A DNA stretch of 61,218 nucleotides from Acidimicrobiaceae bacterium (GTDB taxonomy: Bacteria; Actinomycetota; Acidimicrobiia; Acidimicrobiales; JAUTXP01). Shown here piece by piece: positions 13,733 through 30,712 of this stretch. A program made the position numbers and the translations under genes. Within the stretch, counting starts at the first letter, position 1; each line of letters begins with the position of its first letter. Under the pieces are notes generated by a model. It made no database searches. It had not been told where the DNA came from and worked only from the letters and a program-made list of their open reading frames with translations. The stretch is from positions 1 through 61,218 of the forward strand of contig JAUTXP010000041.1 of the NCBI GenBank assembly GCA_030837965.1. Reading direction: 5' to 3'.

Positions 13733-13756
13733 CGCACTTTGCCGACTGGGGTCATC

Positions 13757-14701
13757 GTGAATGAGCGAATACTCATCGTGGACGATGAGGCGGACATCGC
13801 CCGACTGTTGGAGTTGAACCTCGATTCCGAGGGGTTCGACGTCGAGGTCGTGACGGACGCCCTGTCGGCGTTGCCACATGCCATCAGCTTCCGGCCCGAC
13901 CTCGTCCTGCTGGACGTGAACATGCCGGACATGGACGGCTTGGCCGTCACCCGCGCCTTGCGGTCGGACGCGCTGACGGCGGCTGCCAGTATTATCCTTT
14001 TGACGGCCAAAGCGAGCATGGACGACCGATTAGTCGGATTGGCCGCCGGGGCTGACGACTACATCACCAAGCCCTTCGACCTGGACGAGCTGCTGAGTAG
14101 AGTCAGGGCCGCATTGCGGCGGGCCAGCCAGCTTCGGGGCGCCTCCCCGCTGACCGGGCTGCCCGGAAATTTCGAGATCCTGCGCCAATTGCAGGTGCTG
14201 ATCGACGCCGAGGGCTCCAGCTTTGCCCTCGTCCATGCCGACCTCGACAACTTCAAGGCCTACAACGACCACTACGGCTTCGTGCGGGGGGACCAGGCCA
14301 TCCAGGCCACGGCCGACCTGCTGCTCGAAGAGCTGGGGAAGGTGGTCACCCGCCCCCGGTTCCTGGGCCACGTGGGCGGCGACGACTTCGCCCTCATCGT
14401 GCCCGCGGCCGTGGCCGAGGAGGTGGCCGAGGCCGTCACCTGCCGCTTCGACCAGCTCGTGCCCCTGTTGTACGAGCCCGACGACTGGCAGCGGGGCTCG
14501 GTGTCGGTGGTGGGCAGGGACGGCGTCACCCGCGAGCTGCCCTTCCTCACCATCTCCCTGGGCATCGCCTCGTCGGCCACCCGCGGCTTCACCTCGCCCG
14601 TCGAGATGGCCGCGGTGGCCAGCGAGATGAAGCAGTTCGCCAAGCAGCACGTCGGGTCCACCTGGCGCATGGACCGCAGGCGGGGCGATCGGGTGGGCTG
14701 A
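13757..14701 (+). CDS. Response regulator with C-terminal GGDEF-like domain
   Basis: A 314-residue protein with an N-terminal receiver (acidic pair in IVDDEAD, phosphoacceptor Asp53 in LLDVNMPDMDG, Thr/Lys of LLTAK) and a C-terminal diguanylate-cyclase-like domain. The metal/nucleotide half-motif ADLDNFKAYNDHYGF is good, but the signature loop reads GGDDF, not GGDEF or GGEEF. Whether it still makes cyclic di-GMP is uncertain. The chosen start is GTG at 13757, which puts the first beta strand at residue 3; a TTG at 13739 is in frame upstream. No cognate histidine kinase is adjacent. Confidence 0.88.
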   Translation: MNERILIVDDEADIARLLELNLDSEGFDVEVVTDALSALPHAISFRPDLVLLDVNMPDMDGLAVTRALRSDALTAAASIILLTAKASMDDRLVGLAAGADDYITKPFDLDELLSRVRAALRRASQLRGASPLTGLPGNFEILRQLQVLIDAEGSSFALVHADLDNFKAYNDHYGFVRGDQAIQATADLLLEELGKVVTRPRFLGHVGGDDFALIVPAAVAEEVAEAVTCRFDQLVPLLYEPDDWQRGSVSVVGRDGVTRELPFLTISLGIASSATRGFTSPVEMAAVASEMKQFAKQHVGSTWRMDRRRGDRVG

Positions 14702-14732: not shown

Positions 14733-14763
14733 GGCGCGACGAATGCCGAACCCGGGCCGTACT
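14733..14763 (+). promoter_or_regulatory. Two-part promoter-like motif, copy 1
   Basis: GGCGCGACG (14733-14741) and GGGCCGTACT (14754-14763) lie 12 bases apart and end 8 bases before the ATG of the DUF3892 gene. The same two blocks, 11 bases apart and 7 bases before an ATG, lie upstream of the DeoR-family gene (30683-30712). If TACT is the start of the -10 element, the transcript would begin at or next to the start codon (leaderless). Confidence 0.45.
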
Positions 14764-15085: not shown

Positions 15086-16027
15086 CTAGGACGCAGGCGA
15101 AGACTTTCGCGGTGCCTCGTCCGAGGGCGGTGACTCGTCCGATGGCCCGACCAAGGTCACTTGGACGTCCATCTCCTCGACGCCCCTGACCACCCTCACC
15201 TGCAAGGTGGCGCCTGGTTGGGCCGCGTCGAGCACCGCGTGCAGGTCGTCGGCCGTGGCCAGCGGCCGTCCGTCGGCCTGGACCAGCAGGTCGCCCTCAC
15301 CGATGCCCGCGTTGGCGGCCGGGCCGTTGGCGACCATGCCCCGCACGAGGAGTCCGTCTCGCTCGGGCAGGCCCACCGCCTTGCGCAGTTGCCGAGCCGC
15401 GCTCGACGGGGCCAGGGCCACGCCCAGGAGCGGCCGCCGGCGCGACTCGCCCCGGCCGAGGGCGTCGATGCGCTGGCGCAGGGCGCCGTCGGCGGGCAGG
15501 GCCAGGTAGAACCCGTCGCCGAGCCGGTGGGTGTTGATGCCGAGCAGCCGGCCGTCGCCGTCCACCACAGGCCCGCCCGACGAGCCCCGGGGCAGCGGAG
15601 CGGTGTGCTCCAGGCTCCCGGTGATTCTGCGCCCACGGGGGCCCCTGAACGCCTCGTCCGTGCCCGAGACGGCGCCGAAGGTCACCCGGAGCCCCCGCCC
15701 GCCCGGGTTGGCGACGGCGAAGACCACCGCGCCCCGCTCGGGACCGCCCTCCGTCCAGGGGAGGGCAGGCGCGTCGGCCGTGTCCACGGCCAGCACGGCC
15801 AAGTCGCCGTCGGGGTCGACGGCCCGCAAGGTGGCCGAGGCCCGCCGCCCGTCGGCGAAGCTGACCGACACCGTCTCGCCCCCGAGATTGTGGGCGTTGG
15901 TGAGCACCGACCCTGGACCGAGCACGATGCCCGAGCCCACAGCCCGGCCCCCGCTCACGCCCACCACCGAGGGACCGGCCTGGTCCGCCACCCGCCTGAT
16001 CGTCGCCGCCAACTCGTCCAAGGCCAT
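15086..16027 (-). CDS. HtrA-like trypsin-fold serine protease with PDZ domain
   Basis: A 313-residue protein with a trypsin-like domain and a C-terminal PDZ domain. The triad is visible: His46 in LTNAHNLGG, Asp75 in DPDGDLAVL and Ser150 in PRGSSGGPV. The PDZ part starts near residue 190 (LLGVALAPS) and includes NAGIGEGDLLVQADGRPL. No signal peptide or membrane anchor is seen from the ATG at 16027, so it may act in the cytoplasm or be exported by another route. It diverges from an HxlR-type regulator, and a 23-bp palindrome lies between them, so the regulator probably controls it. Confidence 0.9.
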   Translation of the reverse strand: MALDELAATIRRVADQAGPSVVGVSGGRAVGSGIVLGPGSVLTNAHNLGGETVSVSFADGRRASATLRAVDPDGDLAVLAVDTADAPALPWTEGGPERGAVVFAVANPGGRGLRVTFGAVSGTDEAFRGPRGRRITGSLEHTAPLPRGSSGGPVVDGDGRLLGINTHRLGDGFYLALPADGALRQRIDALGRGESRRRPLLGVALAPSSAARQLRKAVGLPERDGLLVRGMVANGPAANAGIGEGDLLVQADGRPLATADDLHAVLDAAQPGATLQVRVVRGVEEMDVQVTLVGPSDESPPSDEAPRKSSPAS

Positions 16028-16085
16028 CACTGCCTCCCGTTCTGCCGTCCGCCGCCCGGCGTGTGCTGGGCCGACCGTACGCCGA

Positions 16086-16108
16086 GTCACTTGCAGTTTG
16101 CAAGTGAC
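16086..16108. promoter_or_regulatory. Palindromic operator between protease and HxlR genes
   Basis: Perfect 9-bp arms GTCACTTGC (16086-16094) and GCAAGTGAC (16100-16108) flank a 5-base spacer. The site lies in the 111-base divergent region, 59 bases from the protease ATG and 31 bases from the regulator GTG. Its size and placement fit a dimeric winged-helix regulator such as the adjacent HxlR protein. Confidence 0.75.
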
Positions 16109-16138
16109 AAATGCTGACGGGTCGGCGACAATGACGGC

Positions 16139-16621
16139 GTGCCCCGTCCCCTGGCCTCCCCGGCGCCACCGGCGTCCCCGGCCACCCTGGCGCCACCGAC
16201 CGTCCTCGACGCCGCCCTGGACCGGGTCGGGGACCGATGGTCCCTCCTGGTCGTGGCTGCCCTGCTGGTGGGCGCCCGCCGTTTCAACGACCTGCTGGAG
16301 GACGTGGGCGGGATCGCCCCCAACGTGTTGAGCAAGCGCCTGAAGCACCTCGAGCACGAAGGGGTGGTGGTGGCGACCCCCTACTCGCGGCGGCCGCCGC
16401 GGTTCACCTACCAGCTCACCGCGTCGGGCCTGGAACTGGCCGACGTGCTGCGGGTGCTGGCCCAGTGGGGCGCCTCACACGGCCACCTGCCTGCGGGCAG
16501 CAGCGAGCACGGTGGCCGGGCCCACGACGCATGCGGCACAGCCCTGGAGACCCGTTGGTACTGCCCCACGTGCGCGCGTGTGGTGGACGACGACGAGGGC
16601 GACGGCCTGCTGCATCTGTGA
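16139..16621 (+). CDS. HxlR family transcriptional regulator
   Basis: A 160-residue winged-helix regulator. The HxlR core runs from about residue 22 to 110: DRVGDRWSLLVVAALL, then RRFNDLLEDVGGIAPNVLS and TYQLTASGLELADVL. The first 20 residues are Pro/Ala-rich, and a C-terminal extension holds CPTC plus an earlier Cys, a possible small metal or redox site not seen in minimal HxlR proteins. The start is GTG at 16139. It is likely autoregulated and controls the divergent HtrA-like protease through the palindrome at 16086-16108. HxlR regulators often sense aldehydes, quinones or redox change; the signal here is unknown. Confidence 0.9.
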   Translation: MPRPLASPAPPASPATLAPPTVLDAALDRVGDRWSLLVVAALLVGARRFNDLLEDVGGIAPNVLSKRLKHLEHEGVVVATPYSRRPPRFTYQLTASGLELADVLRVLAQWGASHGHLPAGSSEHGGRAHDACGTALETRWYCPTCARVVDDDEGDGLLHL

Positions 16622-19269: not shown

Positions 19270-19680
19270 TCAGGCGGGAGGTGATGCCGCGTCCAGGGCG
19301 ACGCCGATAACACCGGCAACCCGGGCGAGGTCGGCGTCCTGGGCCAGGAGCACGGCCTGATGTCGTCGCGCCACCGAGGCGATCATGCAGTCGATCATTC
19401 CTCGGGGGGTGATCCCGACGCGTCGGCAGGCGCGGTAGATGCGGGCCGCAGCCTCAAAGTCAACCGCAGCGTCGAACCTGAGCAACTCGAAGCGAAGGAG
19501 GAGCCGACGCAGGTCGGCCTCCCGGTCATCGCTCCGCGCGCCGGCGACAACCTCCATGACCACCGGCTCGGTGACGCCGACGTTGTCGTCGCTGGCAATG
19601 AGCTCGGTGAGGCGTTGGTCAACTCGGCTGTTCGTCGCTCGGTCGTACTCCACCCAAGCCGACGTGTCGACCAGGATCAC
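19270..19680 (-). CDS. vapC: PIN-domain ribonuclease toxin VapC
   Basis: A 136-residue PIN-domain protein. The acidic metal-binding residues are in place: Asp5 in ILVDTSAWVE, Glu in PVVMEVVAG (near 43), Asp in GMIDCMIAS (near 96) and Asp in LLAQDADLARV (near 116). VapC toxins cut specific tRNA or rRNA sites; the target here is unknown. Its ATG overlaps the antitoxin stop by four bases (ATGA), the usual arrangement. Confidence 0.92.
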   Translation of the reverse strand: MILVDTSAWVEYDRATNSRVDQRLTELIASDDNVGVTEPVVMEVVAGARSDDREADLRRLLLRFELLRFDAAVDFEAAARIYRACRRVGITPRGMIDCMIASVARRHQAVLLAQDADLARVAGVIGVALDAASPPA

Positions 19681-19889
19681 GCCGCACTCGTCGGGGCGAC
19701 ATCGCTCGGCACCTCGTTGATCGCACGGGTGCCCCGCATGGCCAAGGCCTCCTCACGGGTCATCGGCTGACCGGCGAGGTGTCGGAGGGCGAGGTCGACG
19801 GCGTCGGTCTTGGTGTGGACGCCAAAGCGGTCCATGATCGCCTTCAGGTATGTCTCTTCCAGTTCAATGTTCGTCCGGACCTTGGCCAT
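19677..19889 (-). CDS. vapB: VapB antitoxin
   Basis: A 70-residue antitoxin with an N-terminal ribbon-helix-helix-type DNA-binding segment (RTNIELEETYLKAIMDRF, then HTKTDAVDLALRHLAG) and a flexible C-terminal tail that would bind VapC. It is translationally coupled to vapC. A nested symmetric operator overlaps and precedes the start codon (19889-19925), and TACGAT six bases before the ATG could be a -10 element, which would make the transcript leaderless. An upstream ATG at 19907 is in frame. Confidence 0.88.
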   Translation of the reverse strand: MAKVRTNIELEETYLKAIMDRFGVHTKTDAVDLALRHLAGQPMTREEALAMRGTRAINEVPSDVAPTSAA

Positions 19890-19925
19890 ACACGCATCGT
19901 ACACCATCCGTGTAGGCGACGTGTA
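19889..19925. promoter_or_regulatory. VapBC operator with nested symmetry
   Basis: Two TACAC half-sites (19889-19893, 19900-19904) face two GTGTA half-sites (19910-19914, 19921-19925). Spacings are 6, 5 and 6 bases, so both pairs are centred on the same point at 19907. This fits cooperative binding of two ribbon-helix-helix dimers or of the VapBC hetero-octamer, giving autorepression. Confidence 0.75.
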
Positions 19926-19951
19926 GAGCGGCGGCTCACCGCCATCGACTG

Positions 19952-20461
19952 CTATTCGACGACGGGGTCCTCGACCACGAGCACGCCGGTCCAGGTCGAC
20001 CCACTGGGGGGGCACCCGGCCGCAACTGTCGCCAGCTCCCCAGCAAAGACGAGGCTGTTGTCGTCACTGACGCCCACGATGGTGGCAGTCGGGCCGATCA
20101 CGGTGAGCTTGACGTTCACACCGCCGTTGAAGCTGGCGGTGCTCACGGCCGGCTTGCCCGTGTACTCCCCGCTGTTGCAACTGATTCCGGGGACGACGGC
20201 AATGAGGCCACCGTTCACCGTGATTGTGGCGCCAGTCGACCCTGCATAGACGCATGGCCCGCCCAGGTTCAGGCCAGCCGTCGTGTTCGACAGGTTGGTG
20301 GGCGATGGGGCGGACCCAAACGTGATGGATCCACTCACGGTGCACTCGCCACCGAACACCCGTGGCACGGCATGGGCGGGACTGACGGGAACGACCAGGA
20401 CAAAGAGCGCGGCAAGCGCGAGAAGCACGCGGCAGCCGCCGGGAAAGCGCACGATTTTCAT
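19952..20461 (-). CDS. Secreted small protein of unknown function
   Basis: A 169-residue exported protein with a signal peptide (hydrophobic core LLALAALFVLVVPVS, cleavage likely after PAHA). The mature part is rich in Gly, Thr, Val and Asn with beta-strand character and has four Cys (in GGECTVSG, GPCVYAG, ISCNSGE and AGCPPSG), which could form two disulfides. There is no catalytic motif and I do not recognise the family. It stands alone on the minus strand, with 175 bases to the ECF sigma gene stop upstream; that gap should hold its promoter. Confidence 0.78.
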   Translation of the reverse strand: MKIVRFPGGCRVLLALAALFVLVVPVSPAHAVPRVFGGECTVSGSITFGSAPSPTNLSNTTAGLNLGGPCVYAGSTGATITVNGGLIAVVPGISCNSGEYTGKPAVSTASFNGGVNVKLTVIGPTATIVGVSDDNSLVFAGELATVAAGCPPSGSTWTGVLVVEDPVVE

Positions 20462-20636: not shown

Positions 20637-22637
20637 CTAACAGGCGGGCCGCCAGGTCCGCCCTTGGTCGTGCGAGCAGGCCACCCCCATGATCTCGCCG
20701 TTCAAGCCGACGAGGATGGTGCCATCGGGAAGGGGCTTGACGGTACCGAGGTATCCCGTGGGGAGTGCCGCGGTGGAGATCTCCTGCCAGGAGGCGCCCA
20801 GGTCGGCTGTTCGCCAGATCTGGTTGAGCAATCGTTCCTGGCGCAGACCGAGGACGTAGTACTGCCCGTCCGGCCCGGCCGTGGGCTCCATGACACCGAC
20901 GACTGCAGGCGGCAGGGCGACTCGGGTATACGTAACGCCTCCGTCCAGGGAGCGGTACATCACCGAGGAGTCAGTGGCCCAGAGGACGTCGCGGCCGCCG
21001 GTGTGGGTGACCGTCATCTGCGGCTCGCCCGCCATGCCCGCCAAGGCCACGCCCGTGTCGCATGACGTCCCTTGACAGCGGTACACGGTGCTGACCGAGC
21101 CGCCGGTGGCCTGGGGCACGGCCGCGCCCACGTACATGAGGGGGTGGGCCACGTCGTAGCCAGTGGGGAAGGCGAAGCTGAACCGCAGGGAGGCGCTGTT
21201 GGGCCCGGGCTTCCAGCCGAGCGGCTCGGGCAGGTTGGACGTGGCGTTGTACTGCCAGCCCGGAGCGTCCGGCAGGAGGAGTCGGGGGTCGCCGGCCGAG
21301 AAGGCGGGCGACATGGTCGCCGTGCCCGTGGTGGCCAGCAGGGTGATGAAGGTCTCGCCGCCGTCGGTCGAGACCTGGAGCCCGAGCGAGCCGGTGGCGA
21401 AGATGCGGTTGTCGGCAGGCCAGGCGGGCGGGAGCACGATCTTGGTGGCGTTCATCGACACGCTCTTGGAGCTGTGCCAGTCGGCCCCGCCGTTGGTGGA
21501 CTTGAAGAGCACGCCGCAGGTGGTCGCGCACCCGGACCGGGGGGCGCCGACCGCGAAGACGGTGTGGTCCTCCTCGTAGTGGGGCGAGGTGGTGAAGGAC
21601 TCGAAGATGGCGTCGCCGGGATCGGTGGACGTGGTGCCGGGCAACAGCGTCTGGGCCTTCCACGGCGAGCCCTTGGACCACGGCGGCACGACCGGCGCGG
21701 CCGCAGCAGAAGCGGCGGCGCCCGAACCGGCGACCGAGGCGCCCGCCCCCGACGCAGACGAGGCGACGGGCGGCACCGCAGCCGCGGCTTGGCCGTTGAC
21801 GGCGGCGAGGCCGCGCCCGGCGTCGGAGTGGACCACCCCGCCGGGCCCGCCCATGCTCACCGCCCCCACGGACAGGGCCATGAGCGATACCAGCGCCTCG
21901 CCCAAGCGGGTGGAGGCCACGCCGGTGTCGTGCAGGGCCGTTTGCCAGCGGGCCATGCGCACCGCCATGCGGGCCCGAGCCCGCTGGAAGGCACGGATGA
22001 AGGCGCCCAGGGGGGCCAGGGCGGGCACGCCGCCCTTGGCCAGCGACTCGTAGGACTTGCGCAGCGACATGCGGGCCCGGCGCAGCGAGCCGCGGATGGA
22101 CTCGACGGTGACGCCTTCGAAACGGGCGATGTCCTCGTAGGACCAGCCCTCGATGTCACGCAGGCCCACGATGCGCTGATGGTCAGGCCGCAGACGGCGG
22201 AAGGCGGTGACGGCCATGCGGCACTCGTCGGCCGCCTCGGACAACTCGTCGGGCCGGGGCTGGACGCACGGCTCGAGGGCGGCGGCCCCGCCCGCCCGGG
22301 CGATGGCCCGTTCGTCGCGGCGCCAGTAGTCGACGCACAGCCTGCGGGCGATGGTGGCCACCCAAGGCCAGAATGGGCGGCTGGGCGAATAGCGGTCCCA
22401 CGACGACCACGCCCTCGACAACGCCTCTTGGGCGATGTCCTCGGGGTCGTACCCCGGCGGACAGTACCGGCGGCAATAGGCCACCAGCGGGTTGAATGTC
22501 CGGTTGTACAGATCTGCGAACGCGTCAACCTCAGAGGGTTGTCCCACCCCTCCGGGTCGGTGTTCGACAAAGATCTCCACAGTCGTGGGCAATGCCGTAT
22601 CCCCCCGGGTTGCGCTCCGGTAGGTGTCATTCGACAC
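20637..22637 (-). CDS. ECF-type sigma factor fused to a predicted BNR-repeat beta-propeller
   Basis: A 666-residue fusion. Residues about 40-108 are sigma region 2 (YDPEDIAQEALSRAWSSWDR, then PFWPWVATIARRLCVDYWRR); about 143-193 are region 4 (GWSYEDIARFEGVTVESIRG). A weakly hydrophobic stretch (LGEALVSLMALSVGAVSMGG, near 245-264) may be a membrane segment. An Ala/Gly/Ser-rich linker follows, then about 340 residues with five Asp-box/BNR-like motifs (STNGGADW, STDGGETF, SLDGGVTY, TADLGASW, SHDQGRTW), typical of sialidase or photosystem assembly propellers. GTG 22637 is chosen for AGGAGG 11 bases upstream; a GTG at 22688 is in frame. It diverges from the GAF pseudokinase gene across 63 bases. 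Confidence 0.85.
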   Translation of the reverse strand: MSNDTYRSATRGDTALPTTVEIFVEHRPGGVGQPSEVDAFADLYNRTFNPLVAYCRRYCPPGYDPEDIAQEALSRAWSSWDRYSPSRPFWPWVATIARRLCVDYWRRDERAIARAGGAAALEPCVQPRPDELSEAADECRMAVTAFRRLRPDHQRIVGLRDIEGWSYEDIARFEGVTVESIRGSLRRARMSLRKSYESLAKGGVPALAPLGAFIRAFQRARARMAVRMARWQTALHDTGVASTRLGEALVSLMALSVGAVSMGGPGGVVHSDAGRGLAAVNGQAAAAVPPVASSASGAGASVAGSGAAASAAAAPVVPPWSKGSPWKAQTLLPGTTSTDPGDAIFESFTTSPHYEEDHTVFAVGAPRSGCATTCGVLFKSTNGGADWHSSKSVSMNATKIVLPPAWPADNRIFATGSLGLQVSTDGGETFITLLATTGTATMSPAFSAGDPRLLLPDAPGWQYNATSNLPEPLGWKPGPNSASLRFSFAFPTGYDVAHPLMYVGAAVPQATGGSVSTVYRCQGTSCDTGVALAGMAGEPQMTVTHTGGRDVLWATDSSVMYRSLDGGVTYTRVALPPAVVGVMEPTAGPDGQYYVLGLRQERLLNQIWRTADLGASWQEISTAALPTGYLGTVKPLPDGTILVGLNGEIMGVACSHDQGRTWRPAC

Positions 22638-22700
22638 GTGTTGGGCGTCCTCCTGCTTTGAATCCTGACACGAACTCACAGGGCGCACGTACTACTTGAT

Positions 22701-24791
22701 GTGACGTTGTCGCCTTTCGTCGGCGACCTCCCGCGCCGCGCCACGTACGTCCGGCCTGCCGAGGAGGTCATGGCAGACGTGGCCTCGGCCGCGTCTCAAG
22801 CCGCGGACCTCGACGTCCTCCTCAACCGCCTGGCCGACCTTACGCTGGAGGCGACCGGCGCAGACCGGGTCTCGCTCTTCCTCCTCGACAACGAGAGCGC
22901 GTCGCTGCGGCTGTGGTCGGTGACCGGTCAACAGCCCTCGGACCAGCTCTGGGACCTGGCCTTGGCCATGCCCGCCATCCCGATCGACCAGTTCCCTTCC
23001 CGACGGGCCTTGTTCGACGGCGACGGACCAGTGGCCATCCCCGACGCCCAGGACAGCCCCTTCGTCCCGCCCGAGTGGGCCGAGGCCTTCCAACTCCGGG
23101 CCTTGGTAGCCGCGTCCCTGCGCTGCGGCCAGGACAGTTTGGGCCTGCTGGTCGTCGACTACCGGTCCGACCCCGACTTCTCGCCCGAGCTGCTCCGCCT
23201 GGTCGGCACCATCGCCAGCTCCTGCGCCCTGGCCGTCGGCCATGCGCTCGTGTCATCCGCTCTCAAGGAGCGCAACGACAACCTCCAGAGCCTGCTCGAC
23301 GCCAGCCGGACGCTGTCCTCGCCTGTCTCCCTCGACCACGTGGCCGACCGGGTGGCCGAGTCGATCATCCGCGTGCTGGGCGCCAGCTACCTGTCGGTGC
23401 ACCTGCTCGACGACGGCCGCACCCGCTACCACACGCTGACCCAGCGCAACATCCGCTTCCCGGCCGAGGGCAGGATCGCCGACCTGCCCCGACCGGCCCT
23501 GCGCGCCGTGATCGCCGCGTGGCGGGGGGAGGTCGTGCCTGAGCCCGTCCTGCTTCCCGACGTGCAAGGCGGGCCCTCGGGAGGCACGACCGTTGTGCTC
23601 CCGCTGCTGCGCCCCGCGGCCGACGTGTTCGGCTTCATCGTCTTGGGCCTGGACGGCGGGCGTGAGCCGACGCCGGCCACCCTCGAATTGGCCGGGGCCC
23701 TCGCGTCGCACGTGGCCTTCGCCGTCGACCGGGTGCGCATCGACGAGCAGATGGCGCTGGGTGCCGAGTTCGCCCGCACCGTCCTCGACCTTTACGAGTT
23801 CGAGCCCGACGACCCCGAAGGCCTCCTCGCCGGACTGCGCAGGGCGGTGCCCCCCACCCTCGGATTCCGCGTCCACGGCCTGCGTCTGTCGGCCGAGATG
23901 GGCGACCTGCGCGTGAACTCGCCCACGTCGGAGCAGGAGCGCCAACTGTGGAAGGCGTGGCGCAGGCGCAAGACCCGGCCCGCGGTCCATCAGGTCGGCA
24001 CCGACGTCTACGCGCCGGTGTGGCGCGCCGGGCGGGTGGTCGGCATGGTTCTCGCCACCGCGTTGCGACCCGATCTGGCCCGCCATGAACGCGAGCTGCT
24101 GGAGGGCCTGGCCTCGGCCCTGGCCCACGCCGTGGAGCGCATCCGCATGCGGGCCGCGGTGCGCAGCAGGGAGAGCGAGTTGGCCTTGGCCGAAGAGCGG
24201 GCCCACGTGGCGTCGAACATGCAGTCGACCATCGGCCGCTTCCTCGAGGCCATCCAGGTCTGCGGCGAAGACCTGGCCGCGTCGTATGAGGGCCGCATCG
24301 CCCAGCGGGCCGAGGGCATCGTGTCACTGGCCCGCACAGCCAGGGCCGAACTGCACGACACGTCCCGTTCCCTGCCCGCGCTCACCTATGACAGGGGCGG
24401 CCTCGAAGCCACGCTTTCTGAGGTCGTGGTGGAGTTGGGCGGGCAACTGGACGCGGCCGCGGCGTTCGAGGTGAGGGGCCAGCGCAGGGACCTGTCGGTC
24501 GAGGTCGAGCAGTCGCTCATCCGCATGGTGCACGAGACGCTCTCGAGGGTCGAGCGCAACGGCCGGGCCAGCGCCATCGCCGTGCGCCTCGAGTTCCGAC
24601 CGGACGAGGTGGAGCTGGTGATCCGCGACGACGGCACCGACCTGGCCACCCGAGAACTCGGACAAGGAGGGCTGGGCGCCCACTTCGGGCTTCGCCTGGT
24701 CCAGCGCAGGCTGGAGGCGCTGGGCGGCAAGCTCTACATCGAGCGGCCTTCGCCGCGCGGCCTTGAGCTTCGGGCCCGCGTGCCCGCTTGA
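22701..24791 (+). CDS. Multi-GAF protein with degenerate histidine kinase module
   Basis: A 696-residue cytoplasmic protein with GAF-like domains near residues 25-180, 190-350 and 355-470 and a C-terminal histidine-kinase-like ATPase fold (about 590-696). The region matching the NarL/DegS-type dimerisation helix reads ERAHVASNMQSTIGRF near residue 500, so the usual His-Asp pair is Gln-Ser. The N-box reads ETLSRVERNG, lacking the conserved Asn and His. The G-boxes (IRDDGTDL, GGLGAHFGLRLV) are better kept. It is therefore probably a pseudokinase or ligand-controlled scaffold. The start is GTG. It diverges from the ECF-propeller gene, which may be its functional partner. Confidence 0.85.
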   Translation: MTLSPFVGDLPRRATYVRPAEEVMADVASAASQAADLDVLLNRLADLTLEATGADRVSLFLLDNESASLRLWSVTGQQPSDQLWDLALAMPAIPIDQFPSRRALFDGDGPVAIPDAQDSPFVPPEWAEAFQLRALVAASLRCGQDSLGLLVVDYRSDPDFSPELLRLVGTIASSCALAVGHALVSSALKERNDNLQSLLDASRTLSSPVSLDHVADRVAESIIRVLGASYLSVHLLDDGRTRYHTLTQRNIRFPAEGRIADLPRPALRAVIAAWRGEVVPEPVLLPDVQGGPSGGTTVVLPLLRPAADVFGFIVLGLDGGREPTPATLELAGALASHVAFAVDRVRIDEQMALGAEFARTVLDLYEFEPDDPEGLLAGLRRAVPPTLGFRVHGLRLSAEMGDLRVNSPTSEQERQLWKAWRRRKTRPAVHQVGTDVYAPVWRAGRVVGMVLATALRPDLARHERELLEGLASALAHAVERIRMRAAVRSRESELALAEERAHVASNMQSTIGRFLEAIQVCGEDLAASYEGRIAQRAEGIVSLARTARAELHDTSRSLPALTYDRGGLEATLSEVVVELGGQLDAAAAFEVRGQRRDLSVEVEQSLIRMVHETLSRVERNGRASAIAVRLEFRPDEVELVIRDDGTDLATRELGQGGLGAHFGLRLVQRRLEALGGKLYIERPSPRGLELRARVPA

Positions 24792-26871: not shown

Positions 26872-29800
26872 TCACGTCGCGGTCACGGCCGGAATGGCGC
26901 GGGCGCGCACGACGTCGGGCACTTCGGACGCAGGCATGGGCCGGGCGTAGTAGTAGCCCTGTCCGTACTGCACGCCCAAAGCCTCGAGGATCTGGCCCTG
27001 CTCGGGCTCCTCGATGCCTTCGGCCACCACGGCCAGGTCGAGCTCGGCGGCCAAGTCGACCACCGCTCGGATGACGGCCGCGTCCTGCGCGCCGACACCC
27101 AGGTCGGCCACGAAGCTGCGGTCGACCTTGACCACGTCCACCGGCAGCCTGCGCAGGTAGCCGAGCGATGAATAGCCGGACCCGAAGTCGTCCAAAGCCA
27201 GACGCACGCCCACGGCCCGCAACTCCGCCAGCCGAGCCCGCACCGAGTCGGTGTCGGCCATCAAGATGCTCTCGGTCAGCTCCAGGGTCACATCCGCCGG
27301 CTCCAGCCGGTGACGGCGCAGCGCAGCCGAGACCTCCTCGATCAACTGCGGGTGCTCCAACTGCCGGACCGAGACGTTCACGCTCATGGTGTAGTCGGGA
27401 CATGCAGGGTCGGCGTCGCGCCAGGCCCGCAGGTCGGCGCAGGCCTGGTCCAGCACCCACGCGCCCAGGGTCACGATGAAGCCGGACTGCTCGGCGATCG
27501 GGATGAAGACGTCGGGCCGCACCGCGCCACGCGTGGGATGGCTCCAACGCAACAGGGCCTCGACGCCAGTGACCTCACCCGTGGCCAGGCTCACGATGGG
27601 CTGGTAGTGCACGGCGAACTGGCCCGACGAGAGCGCGCTCGGCATGTCGTTGCGCAGTTCCATGCGCTCGACGGCCACCTCGTGCATCGACTCCTCGAAC
27701 ACCTCGTAGCGGGCTTTGCCCCGCGCCTTGGCGGAGTACATGGCCACATCCGCGTTTCGCAGCAGGACCTCGGCCGACGAGACGCGCGCCGAGTCGATGG
27801 CGATGCCGATGGTGGCGCCCGCCTGCACCGTGCGACCGCCCAGTTCGAACGGCACCAGCAGCGCTTCGAGGACACGGTCGGCCAAGGCCACCACCTGGTC
27901 CTCGGTGTAGATGTCCTCCAGCAGCACGGCGAACTCGTCGCCGCCCAGTCGGGCGGGCGTGTCGGCCGAGCGCAGGCAGTTGCGCAGCCGGTCGCCCACT
28001 GCGACCAGCAGCTCGTCACCCGCGGCATGGCCCAGGCTGTCGTTGATGGTCTTGAGGTCGTCCACGTCGATGCACAGCACGGCCACCATGTCGGGCCGGT
28101 CGCTGCGTCGGAGCAGGGCGTGAGCCGCTCGGTCGGCGAACAGGGTCCGGTTGGCCAGTCCGGTCAGCGAGTCGTGCAGGGCCCGATGGCGGAGCTCGCC
28201 CTCCAACTCCTTGCGGTCGCTCACATCGCGGGCGTTGAGCACCACACCGCCGACCGTCGGCTCGGCCCGAAGGTCGGTGGCCGTGATGTCGAGCGTGTGC
28301 CACGACCCGTCTGCATGGCGCACGCGCAGCTCGGCCCGGTTCTGCTCGTCGGGGTTCGGCGTGTTGAGAGCGCTGAGAACGATGGCCGCTGCCGTCTCGA
28401 CGTCGTCGGGATGCACGAGTTCGACCGGGCTGCGGCCCGAGACCTGCTCGGGCTCGTAGCCCAGCACGCGCCGCACGGCTGGGCTCACGTAGCTGAAGCA
28501 GTTGTCGTCGCCCACCACGGCCACCACGTCGCTGGAGTTCTGCACCAGCGAACGGAAGCGGGCCTCGCTCTCGCTCACGGCCAGCTCTGCGTGCTTGCGA
28601 TCGGTGACGTCGCGCGACGTGAGAACCACACCGGCCACCTCGGGATCGCGCAGCAGGTTGGTGGCGATGGTCTCGAACCAGCGCCACGCCCCGTCGGCCT
28701 GGGCCGCCCGAACCTCGACCGCGTCGAGCACGCCGCCGGGCGTGCGGAAGGCCTCGTCCAACAACCGCTCCACGACGGCCGCGTCGTCAGGATGGACGCT
28801 GGGGAACGGCGTGCCGCCGATGACGGCAGTCGGGTCGACGCCCAGGACGCGGGCTGCGGACGGGCTGGCAAAGGTGACAAGGCCCTCCGGGCTGACCACC
28901 GTCAGCACGTCGGACGACTGCTCGATGAGGGCCTTGAACCGGCGTTCGCTCTTGCGCCGGTGGAGGCTCTCGACCAAGGCGGCCGACTCGATGGCCAAGG
29001 CCACCTCGGAGCCGAAGTCGGACAGGCTCTCCACTGCCTCGGCCGCGATGGGCCGGGGCGAAGTCACGATGATGGCGCCCCGGAGCTCGTTCTGACTGAC
29101 CAGCGGGAGGACGACCACGGACACGTCGTCCACGGCCACCAGGTCCTCCGGCCGCTCGACGTCGCGCAGGTCGACCACTCGGGTGCCATGGGCCACTCGG
29201 GCCCGCCGGTCGCCGAGCGCGTCGGCCAGGCCGTCGCCCAGTGCGGCGGCGCCCAGCACGCGGCCGATGGCCTGGCGCGAGCCCGCGCCGACGGAGGCCA
29301 CGACCTGCATGGCGTCGGCTCGACCGGTGGCCAGACTGGCCCGCACATCGGCCCGTCCGCCCGCCAGCGCCAGCGCGGCGCGCAAGGCGCCTTCGTGCAT
29401 CTCTTCCTTCGTGGTCGCGCCCACTAGCACCACGCCCGCCTCCCGAAGGATGCGCTCGCGCTTGGCCTTGCGCTCGTTGGCGCGCAGCAGCAGGACCATG
29501 CGCCACAAGACCAGCGACGCCAGGATGAACGAGCCCGCCACCACGGTCGAGTCGTCCACCGGTCGGTGCGTCACCGCGGAGATGACGAGCACGGCCGGCG
29601 CCATGGACAAGGCCGCGCCCAGGATGAGCAGCCGTCGGCGGGTCAACTGCATGGGCGCGTGGTCGCGCTCGGTGAGGTGCACCATCTTCGGGTGCAGGGC
29701 GCCCGCGCCGCAGGCCACGAAACCGAAGGTCGAGAAGACGGGAGTGAGCAGGCCGTTGTAGGCGCCCGCGATGGTGAGGGTGGTGAGCACGTCGGCGAAC

Positions 29801-30390
29801 AGCACGCAGACGAAGCACGAGGCCAGCAGGTAGTAGCTCGGGTTGCGGGCGCCGGGGCCGATGGCCAGGCGGGCCCAGACGCCGAGCAGGGCCAGGTCGA
29901 AGAAGGAGTAGCCGGTCGACACCGACCGGTCGAACAGGGGCAGCGCGCCTTGGCGCGCGTACGGGGCCATGAAGAAGGCCCACACGATCAGGCCCGCGCC
30001 CGCGGCCACGATCAATGCGTCGACCAGGTTGGCCCAGTCCCTGCGGCGTGACCGGCTGCGGATGAGCGACGCGCCGCCTGCGATCAGGCTCAGGTACCCG
30101 GCGTAATAGATGGCGTCGGAGACCGAGGGGAAGGGGTCGGCCCCGCCGTTGGCCTTCATGATGTGGGCCAGGACGGCTGCGGCCACGGTGAACGAGCCCG
30201 CGCCTGCGGCGATGAAGTACCAGGCCCGGCGCTGCCTGGCCCACGCCCGGGCCCCGACGACCACGGCGACCACGGCGCCGATGGCGATGCCCTGGCCGAT
30301 CAGTTGGGCCCTCGCTGGGGCGGAGGAGCTGGCCACGGCCATGGCCAGCAGGTTCACCACGAGATAGCAGGCCCACAGGCGCTGTTTCAT
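26872..30390 (-). CDS. Membrane-anchored GAF-PAS-PAS-GGDEF-EAL signalling protein
   Basis: A 1172-residue protein. Residues about 1-320 hold 8-10 membrane segments; a GAF-like region follows (about 330-490), then two PAS domains (near 500-620 and 625-745). A GGDEF domain follows with an intact RLGGDEFAVLLED motif (near 830), then an EAL domain with EALLRW (near 960) and the DDFGSGYSSLGYL and VKVDRSFV motifs (near 1060-1085). Both activities look possible: cyclic di-GMP synthesis and breakdown, with one usually dominant. The ATG at 30390 gives the first membrane segment at residue 5. It shares the divergent region 30391-30719 with the DeoR-type gene. Confidence 0.93.
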   Translation of the reverse strand: MKQRLWACYLVVNLLAMAVASSSAPARAQLIGQGIAIGAVVAVVVGARAWARQRRAWYFIAAGAGSFTVAAAVLAHIMKANGGADPFPSVSDAIYYAGYLSLIAGGASLIRSRSRRRDWANLVDALIVAAGAGLIVWAFFMAPYARQGALPLFDRSVSTGYSFFDLALLGVWARLAIGPGARNPSYYLLASCFVCVLFADVLTTLTIAGAYNGLLTPVFSTFGFVACGAGALHPKMVHLTERDHAPMQLTRRRLLILGAALSMAPAVLVISAVTHRPVDDSTVVAGSFILASLVLWRMVLLLRANERKAKRERILREAGVVLVGATTKEEMHEGALRAALALAGGRADVRASLATGRADAMQVVASVGAGSRQAIGRVLGAAALGDGLADALGDRRARVAHGTRVVDLRDVERPEDLVAVDDVSVVVLPLVSQNELRGAIIVTSPRPIAAEAVESLSDFGSEVALAIESAALVESLHRRKSERRFKALIEQSSDVLTVVSPEGLVTFASPSAARVLGVDPTAVIGGTPFPSVHPDDAAVVERLLDEAFRTPGGVLDAVEVRAAQADGAWRWFETIATNLLRDPEVAGVVLTSRDVTDRKHAELAVSESEARFRSLVQNSSDVVAVVGDDNCFSYVSPAVRRVLGYEPEQVSGRSPVELVHPDDVETAAAIVLSALNTPNPDEQNRAELRVRHADGSWHTLDITATDLRAEPTVGGVVLNARDVSDRKELEGELRHRALHDSLTGLANRTLFADRAAHALLRRSDRPDMVAVLCIDVDDLKTINDSLGHAAGDELLVAVGDRLRNCLRSADTPARLGGDEFAVLLEDIYTEDQVVALADRVLEALLVPFELGGRTVQAGATIGIAIDSARVSSAEVLLRNADVAMYSAKARGKARYEVFEESMHEVAVERMELRNDMPSALSSGQFAVHYQPIVSLATGEVTGVEALLRWSHPTRGAVRPDVFIPIAEQSGFIVTLGAWVLDQACADLRAWRDADPACPDYTMSVNVSVRQLEHPQLIEEVSAALRRHRLEPADVTLELTESILMADTDSVRARLAELRAVGVRLALDDFGSGYSSLGYLRRLPVDVVKVDRSFVADLGVGAQDAAVIRAVVDLAAELDLAVVAEGIEEPEQGQILEALGVQYGQGYYYARPMPASEVPDVVRARAIPAVTAT

Positions 30391-30682: not shown

Positions 30683-30712
30683 GGCGCGACGTTTTGGGCC
30701 CTGGGCCGTACT
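30683..30712 (+). promoter_or_regulatory. Two-part promoter-like motif, copy 2
   Basis: GGCGCGACG (30683-30691) and GGGCCGTACT (30703-30712) lie 11 bases apart and end 7 bases before the ATG of the DeoR-type gene. The same pair precedes the DUF3892 gene at 14733-14763. Confidence 0.45.

Follow-up and report, generated by a model that had tools for sequence, protein, structure and literature searches.

We found a gene in which an ECF sigma factor, a candidate membrane segment and a seven-bladed Asp-box β-propeller are joined in a single protein chain, an architecture that we regard as secure. It is a real, conserved variant of the tethered ECF sigma factor, undescribed within the literature searched, where we found no description of a sigma-propeller combination. 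By analogy with known tethered sigma factors, we lean slightly toward reading the protein as a single-pass ECF sigma factor anchored in the membrane, N terminus inside and C terminus outside, that would be freed by regulated proteolysis. The gene lies in a stretch of 61,218 nucleotides (the window), with the following layout:

20637-22637, reverse strand: whole gene (sigma half, membrane segment, linker, propeller), 666 amino acids plus stop
22649-22654, reverse strand: Shine-Dalgarno sequence AGGAGG, 11 nt 5′ of the GTG start
22308-22511, reverse strand: sigma region 2, residues 43-110 (Pfam PF04542, E 9.5e-18)
22062-22208, reverse strand: sigma region 4, residues 144-192 (Pfam PF08281, E 5.1e-8)
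21897-22031, reverse strand: basic juxtamembrane helix region, residues 203-247, Arg-rich, with a low-confidence AlphaFold helix at 208-238
21831-21896, reverse strand: candidate transmembrane segment, residues 248-269, 22 residues with none charged, weak here and clear in the family mean
21627-21830, reverse strand: Ala/Ser/Pro-rich linker, residues 270-337, predicted to be disordered (pLDDT <50)
20640-21626, reverse strand: seven-bladed Asp-box β-propeller, residues 338-666, with close Cys pairs 370/374, 521/526 and 654/666

The gene is one continuous open frame from its GTG start, with no internal stops. Both sigma domains match Pfam above cut-off and TIGR02937 matches at E 1.9e-21, which identifies the protein as an ECF sigma factor and bears out the complete regions 2 and 4 described in an earlier note on this DNA. 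The ribosome-binding site claimed there was likewise found, and so was the BNR-like half in the same frame, now seen as five Asp boxes and a propeller modeled with high confidence. BNR itself scores marginally above its Pfam cut-off in the window protein; BNR_2 and Sortilin fall below theirs. Cysteines stand at residues 55, 59, 101, 124, 139, 370, 374, 521, 526, 654 and 666.

The earlier note had named non-conservation of the fusion as its refutation. Instead, sigma half, hydrophobic segment and propeller are present together in all 10 complete members of the family, which has 12 propeller members in 7 genomes that span 4 families and 2 orders, all within a single actinobacterial class; the other two members (L067 and L068) are interrupted by contig ends. 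The chance that an assembly error or frameshift merely joined two genes is vanishingly small. Nothing was found in its favor, and we reject it because nine more complete fusions exist outside this genome; in addition, third-position GC is high throughout the gene, at 0.84 to 0.94 across sigma half, linker and propeller. Pfam region 2 was detected in 9 of the 12 members, and the three without it are consistent with the two cut proteins plus L032, whose sigma half is degenerate.

A whole-protein search of 40 relatives returned full-length matches in G013 only. We then used a propeller profile built from four propellers on overlapping draws of genomes from the order, class and phylum, scoring the best five candidates per genome. 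In the order draw at E 1e-10, 9 of the 397 genomes matched among these candidates, six strongly (at least 164 bits) and three weakly (G257, G205 and G022; 43 to 50 bits). The class draw at E 1e-15 gave 3 of 395 genomes on the same five-candidate basis, the new one (G527) from another order, and the phylum draw, again with five candidates each, gave 3 of 396. The new match there, G739 at 59 bits, is a generic, secreted-looking BNR protein. When all candidates were scored, the fusion was found in both genomes of family f14 and in 3 of 10 of family f29; the three f29 carriers all belong to genus g133, and scoring every candidate added no further copies. A scan of named genomes with the window protein matched the sigma half only, and a search of 72,556 plasmid records for a homologue of the propeller gave no matches.

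The ratio dN/dS for sigma half, linker and propeller is 0.11, 0.45 and 0.17 in the closest pair (L069/L070), 0.17, 0.46 and 0.53 in L031/L065, and 0.37, 0.78 and 0.85 in L033/L066. In all three pairs the sigma half is thus the most constrained part, with the propeller drifting fast. Since dS is about 0.7 to 1.7 in the latter two pairs, constraint on the propeller in some pairs may be either weak or saturated, and L033/L066 cannot separate the two.

The five boxes follow the S/T-x-D-x-G-x-x-W/F pattern of the seven-bladed propeller class. They stand at residues 380, 423, 563, 610 and 655. When the propeller half was shuffled 5,000 times, the mean number of boxes was 0.04 and the maximum 2. Their spacing of 43, 140, 47 and 45 fits a period of about 46, and therefore seven blades in 329 residues. 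AlphaFold with a 12-row alignment modeled the propeller alone at pLDDT 88.9 and pTM 0.87; for the whole protein the mean pLDDT was 69.4, with good sigma and propeller domains and low confidence at residues 228-337. In a structure comparison with VIA-align 2, the WD40 propeller RbBP5 (Z 23.4, rmsd 2.9, 271 residues aligned) and a GH74 xyloglucanase (Z 22.5, rmsd 3.4, 295 aligned) were tied within one Z unit, and solved propellers overall reached Z 20 to 23. Profile searches of solved structures matched GH74, sortilin, dispase autolysis-inducing protein, Ycf48 and sialidases. The Asp-box propellers of GH74 xyloglucanases, sortilin VPS10, dispase autolysis-inducing protein and Ycf48 are alike in both profile and fold, but the propeller described here is single, short and joined to a sigma factor; it lacks a second propeller such as GH74 has, as well as the remaining ectodomain of sortilin.

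We also considered enzyme activity. In GH33 sialidases an F/Y-R-I-P motif precedes the first Asp box, and inspection by eye showed that it is absent from the window translation. The active cleft of GH74 enzymes is formed by two tandem propellers; the window protein has a single propeller of 329 residues, at its C-terminal end. A sialidase or GH74 enzyme is therefore unsupported. No arginine is invariant in all 12 propellers, and the best conserved (R411 and R562 in 10, R452 in 9) look structural in the alignment. Because no catalytic site is evident, the propeller more likely binds a glycan or envelope protein than cleaves a substrate.

Several known sigma factors are built in a similar way. 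ECF52 (SCO4117) and the related ECF48 and ECF53 of Actinobacteria have the same order of sigma factor, membrane segment, Pro-rich linker and sensor-like outer domain in one protein, as described in PMC5826349 and PMC8999054. Unlike the window protein, they carry a zinc-finger (ZAS) anti-sigma domain after region 4, and its absence sets the window protein apart from ECF52: the zinc-finger motif HxxxCxxC occurs in none of 25 rows, the window protein included, and zf-HC2 is not among that protein's Pfam matches at E up to 1. The outer domain of SCO4117 is a carbohydrate-binding module, where we find a propeller. These groups also have one or two transmembrane helices, compared with a hydrophobic peak that is seen here across the family and is not significant in the window member alone. 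IutY (ECF243) of Pseudomonas putida is likewise a sigma factor fused to a membrane-bound regulatory part. Its extension is a fused anti-sigma factor for iron cell-surface signaling, of which we found none here, and according to PMC8999054 its release by Prc and RseP has been demonstrated. PMC8999054 and PMC5826349 state that SCO4117 is thought to be freed by proteolysis. The earlier note had compared the protein with WD40 fusions of planctomycetes. These fusions, the ECF57 group, do likewise pair a sigma factor with C-terminal propeller-type repeats, yet the comparison fits less well than that with ECF52-like tethered sigma factors. The ECF57 repeats are WD40-like rather than Asp-box, and here there is family evidence for a membrane segment. 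Furthermore, a Cys pair is described as joining sigma2 and sigma4 of ECF57 (PMC8999054), and region 4 of the window protein (144-192) has no cysteine to match it.

We looked for evidence of the side on which the propeller lies. In the window member, segment 248-269 has a Kyte-Doolittle hydropathy peak of 1.57, which is unremarkable against shuffles of its own linker (P 0.30). The 10 complete members together have a mean peak of 1.99, as compared to 1.68 for the highest of 2,000 shuffled means. The one-protein layout, perhaps across the membrane, that the earlier note had suggested is supported at the level of the family, with the window member's own segment weak. Cysteine counts add an independent line of evidence. 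The set comprised 34 membrane-tethered ECFs lacking a zinc finger, of which 10 are propeller members and 24 are siblings. All 34 have an even number of cysteines past the hydrophobic peak (19 have any there), and 15 have an odd number before it. This difference has a Fisher P of 8e-6, or 2e-4 if only halves with cysteine are counted; as the rows are related, both P values serve as guides. For L102, the peak picked by the script is a Pro-rich stretch and the likelier segment is upstream; its outer count is zero. Two Cys pairs, C521/C526 and C654/C666, are present in 12 of 12 propellers, and C370/C374 in 10 of 12, being lost jointly in L033 and L066. By eye, two sigma-free relatives of the propeller (G022 and G739) have signal-peptide-like N termini. 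Each of these signs is indirect. Taken together, they make it likely that the propeller is outside the cytoplasm, with the N terminus inside, and an outer location of the sibling tails is supported in the same way.

Alternatively, the sigma factor may be cytosolic and its propeller may bind proteins, which has been proposed for the WD40-like ECF57 group; the hydrophobic stretch would then be an Ala-rich linker. The unremarkable peak of the window member agrees with this, as does the tie for top Z between WD40 propellers and GH74. Still, we consider it improbable, given that the peak is family-wide, that cysteine counts are consistently even only beyond it, and that two sigma-free relatives look secreted. 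We also noticed a pattern in the tails of tethered ECFs: among 27, the last 120 residues hold exactly two cysteines in 11 and none in 16. The two are 6 to 12 residues apart and mostly close to the C terminus (L035, L036, L037, L040, L098, L100, L105, two genes in L108, L090 at 514-2073 on the reverse strand, and L107). Such a pair could possibly form a small disulfide-closed cap.

In the tethered, protease-released sigma factor that we favor, the tether would keep the sigma half off productive RNA polymerase in the resting state, possibly with help from the basic juxtamembrane helix. With the zinc-finger anti-sigma domain missing, the tether, that helix or both would have to take its place. 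The propeller would read a ligand or the state of the envelope, and this reading would lead to a first cut outside. A second, intramembrane cut would be made by an M50 protease of the RseP/Rip1 type, and the freed sigma half would then start transcription. In this scheme the propeller would gate the sigma half, as the earlier note had suggested. M50 proteases are present in the genome of the window and in 14 of 14 control genomes, and being near-universal they carry little weight. Searching for a cleavage site, ligand or regulon of the window protein gave none. A trypsin-like protease with a PDZ domain is encoded 4.3 kb from the gene (15086-16357, reverse strand) and is a candidate site-1 protease, by its kind only.

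Two other readings concern how the sigma half works. It may be active in place, uncut at the membrane, with a propeller ligand altering its oligomeric state or exposure. The long, disordered linker would suit such a protein, which has no recognizable anti-sigma domain and, across subgroups, no protease neighbor in common. We think this unlikely, since the tethered ECFs reported so far are believed to act once they have been cut (PMC8999054). A still more doubtful reading, and the least probable of those that accept the protein as it stands, is that some members act as decoys or anti-sigma factors, holding partners at the membrane without starting transcription. The degenerate sigma half shared by L032 and L102, kept at 51% identity over 220 residues, speaks for this, whereas the window member matches Pfam above cut-off in regions 2 and 4.

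The neighborhood of the gene offers no conserved partner. An all-against-all comparison of neighborhoods found no conserved gene adjoining the fusion across sigma subgroups, and on that basis we see no sign of a separate anti-sigma gene. Shared neighbors occur mainly within one genus (L033/L066, L069/L070 and L068/L071). Scattered matches, for example of the L032 and L065 contigs, lie further out and do not adjoin the fusion. Neither of the two flanking genes recurs beside other members. These genes and a nearby motif are as follows:

22701-24791, forward strand: GAF/histidine-kinase gene, divergent neighbor
19952-20461, reverse strand: small secreted-looking protein, neighbor, with no family matches
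14733-14763 and 30683-30712, forward strand: GGCGCGACG-N12/11-GGGCCGTACT motif, present twice in exact form in the window

Just past the small neighbor, on the downstream side of the gene, is a PIN-domain toxin with a VapB-type antitoxin (19270-20015, reverse strand), and the window also encodes a large PAS-GGDEF-EAL protein (26872-30390, reverse strand) and a receiver-GGDEF protein (13739-14701, forward strand). The earlier note had offered the motif at 14733 and 30683 as a possible promoter for this sigma factor. The motif is real: 100 shuffles predicted no copies, and a slightly shorter GGCGCGACG/GGGCCGTACT pattern has only these two copies in the 3.5-Mb genome, each directly preceding a possible start codon. 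A tie to the sigma factor of the window was not found. The canonical ECF promoter consensus is of the GGAAC type, and this gave three loose matches in the window, none close to the gene.

The family indicates that the outer part has been exchanged. Two groups can be told apart among the sigma halves, group I (window, L031, L065, L069, L070 and L071) and group II (L033, L066 and L076), each with support of 100/99. Constraining the two groups together was not rejected (p-AU 0.0706, with L032 omitted for its long branch), so a single origin of the fusion is compatible with this tree, yet not shown by it. In L032 this propeller is attached to a third sigma half, which is degenerate; L102, in the genome of the window, has the matching half, with the shared 220 residues including the membrane segment, followed by a short, different tail and no propeller:

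L032, 7191-9008, reverse strand: degenerate ECF-like half with membrane segment, propeller present
L102, 1464-2480, forward strand: degenerate ECF-like half with membrane segment, propeller absent

One propeller on three sigma modules, and one module with another tail, argue that the outer part is exchangeable. Because its sigma half is degenerate, L032 cannot simply be a released sigma factor; its conservation between two families raises the possibility of a non-initiating sigma-like module. The sequences discussed here, with L032 among them, were themselves used to build our in-house sigma profile. The matches of that profile to them are circular, and Pfam and NCBIfam serve as the independent tests.

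The genome of the window has 33 Sigma70_r2, 5 zinc-finger and 5 M50 matches, one of the last strong. WhiB matches eight times in this genome and in one of 14 control genomes, that of Corynebacterium, which places the source organism in Actinomycetota. The window gene and L039, L040, L098, L100 and L102 each have a hydrophobic segment followed by a tail, and they lack a zinc finger; the genome holds at least six ECFs that look tethered in this way, besides two that are ECF52-like. The latter are adjacent genes (L090, 514-3962, reverse strand) with sigma factor, zf-HC2, hydrophobic segment and Pro-rich tail. The outer parts would comprise the propeller, short tails that a single Cys pair may close, and low-complexity tails. 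Separately, a single stop-to-stop frame in L109 (1715-3571, forward strand; G219) holds Kelch repeats together with a sigma half and a membrane segment. By eye, this frame appears to shift inside region 4, which makes two genes probable, and we set it aside. The likely pair is an ECF gene and, after it, a gene for a membrane protein with an outer Kelch propeller.

In most known ECF pathways, a separate anti-sigma protein carries the signal across the membrane. These data suggest that a single protein could link an outside signal to gene expression. We propose tentatively, and with somewhat less confidence than we give to proteolytic release, that the class uses a set of one-piece receptors, membrane-anchored sigma factors without an anti-sigma domain whose exchangeable outer parts tune them to different signals. 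If so, sensor, membrane anchor and transcription factor would be one chain with a swappable sensor, and it would become directly testable how a sigma factor that lacks an anti-sigma domain is kept inactive. Such a protein would also be a compact chassis for synthetic sensing.
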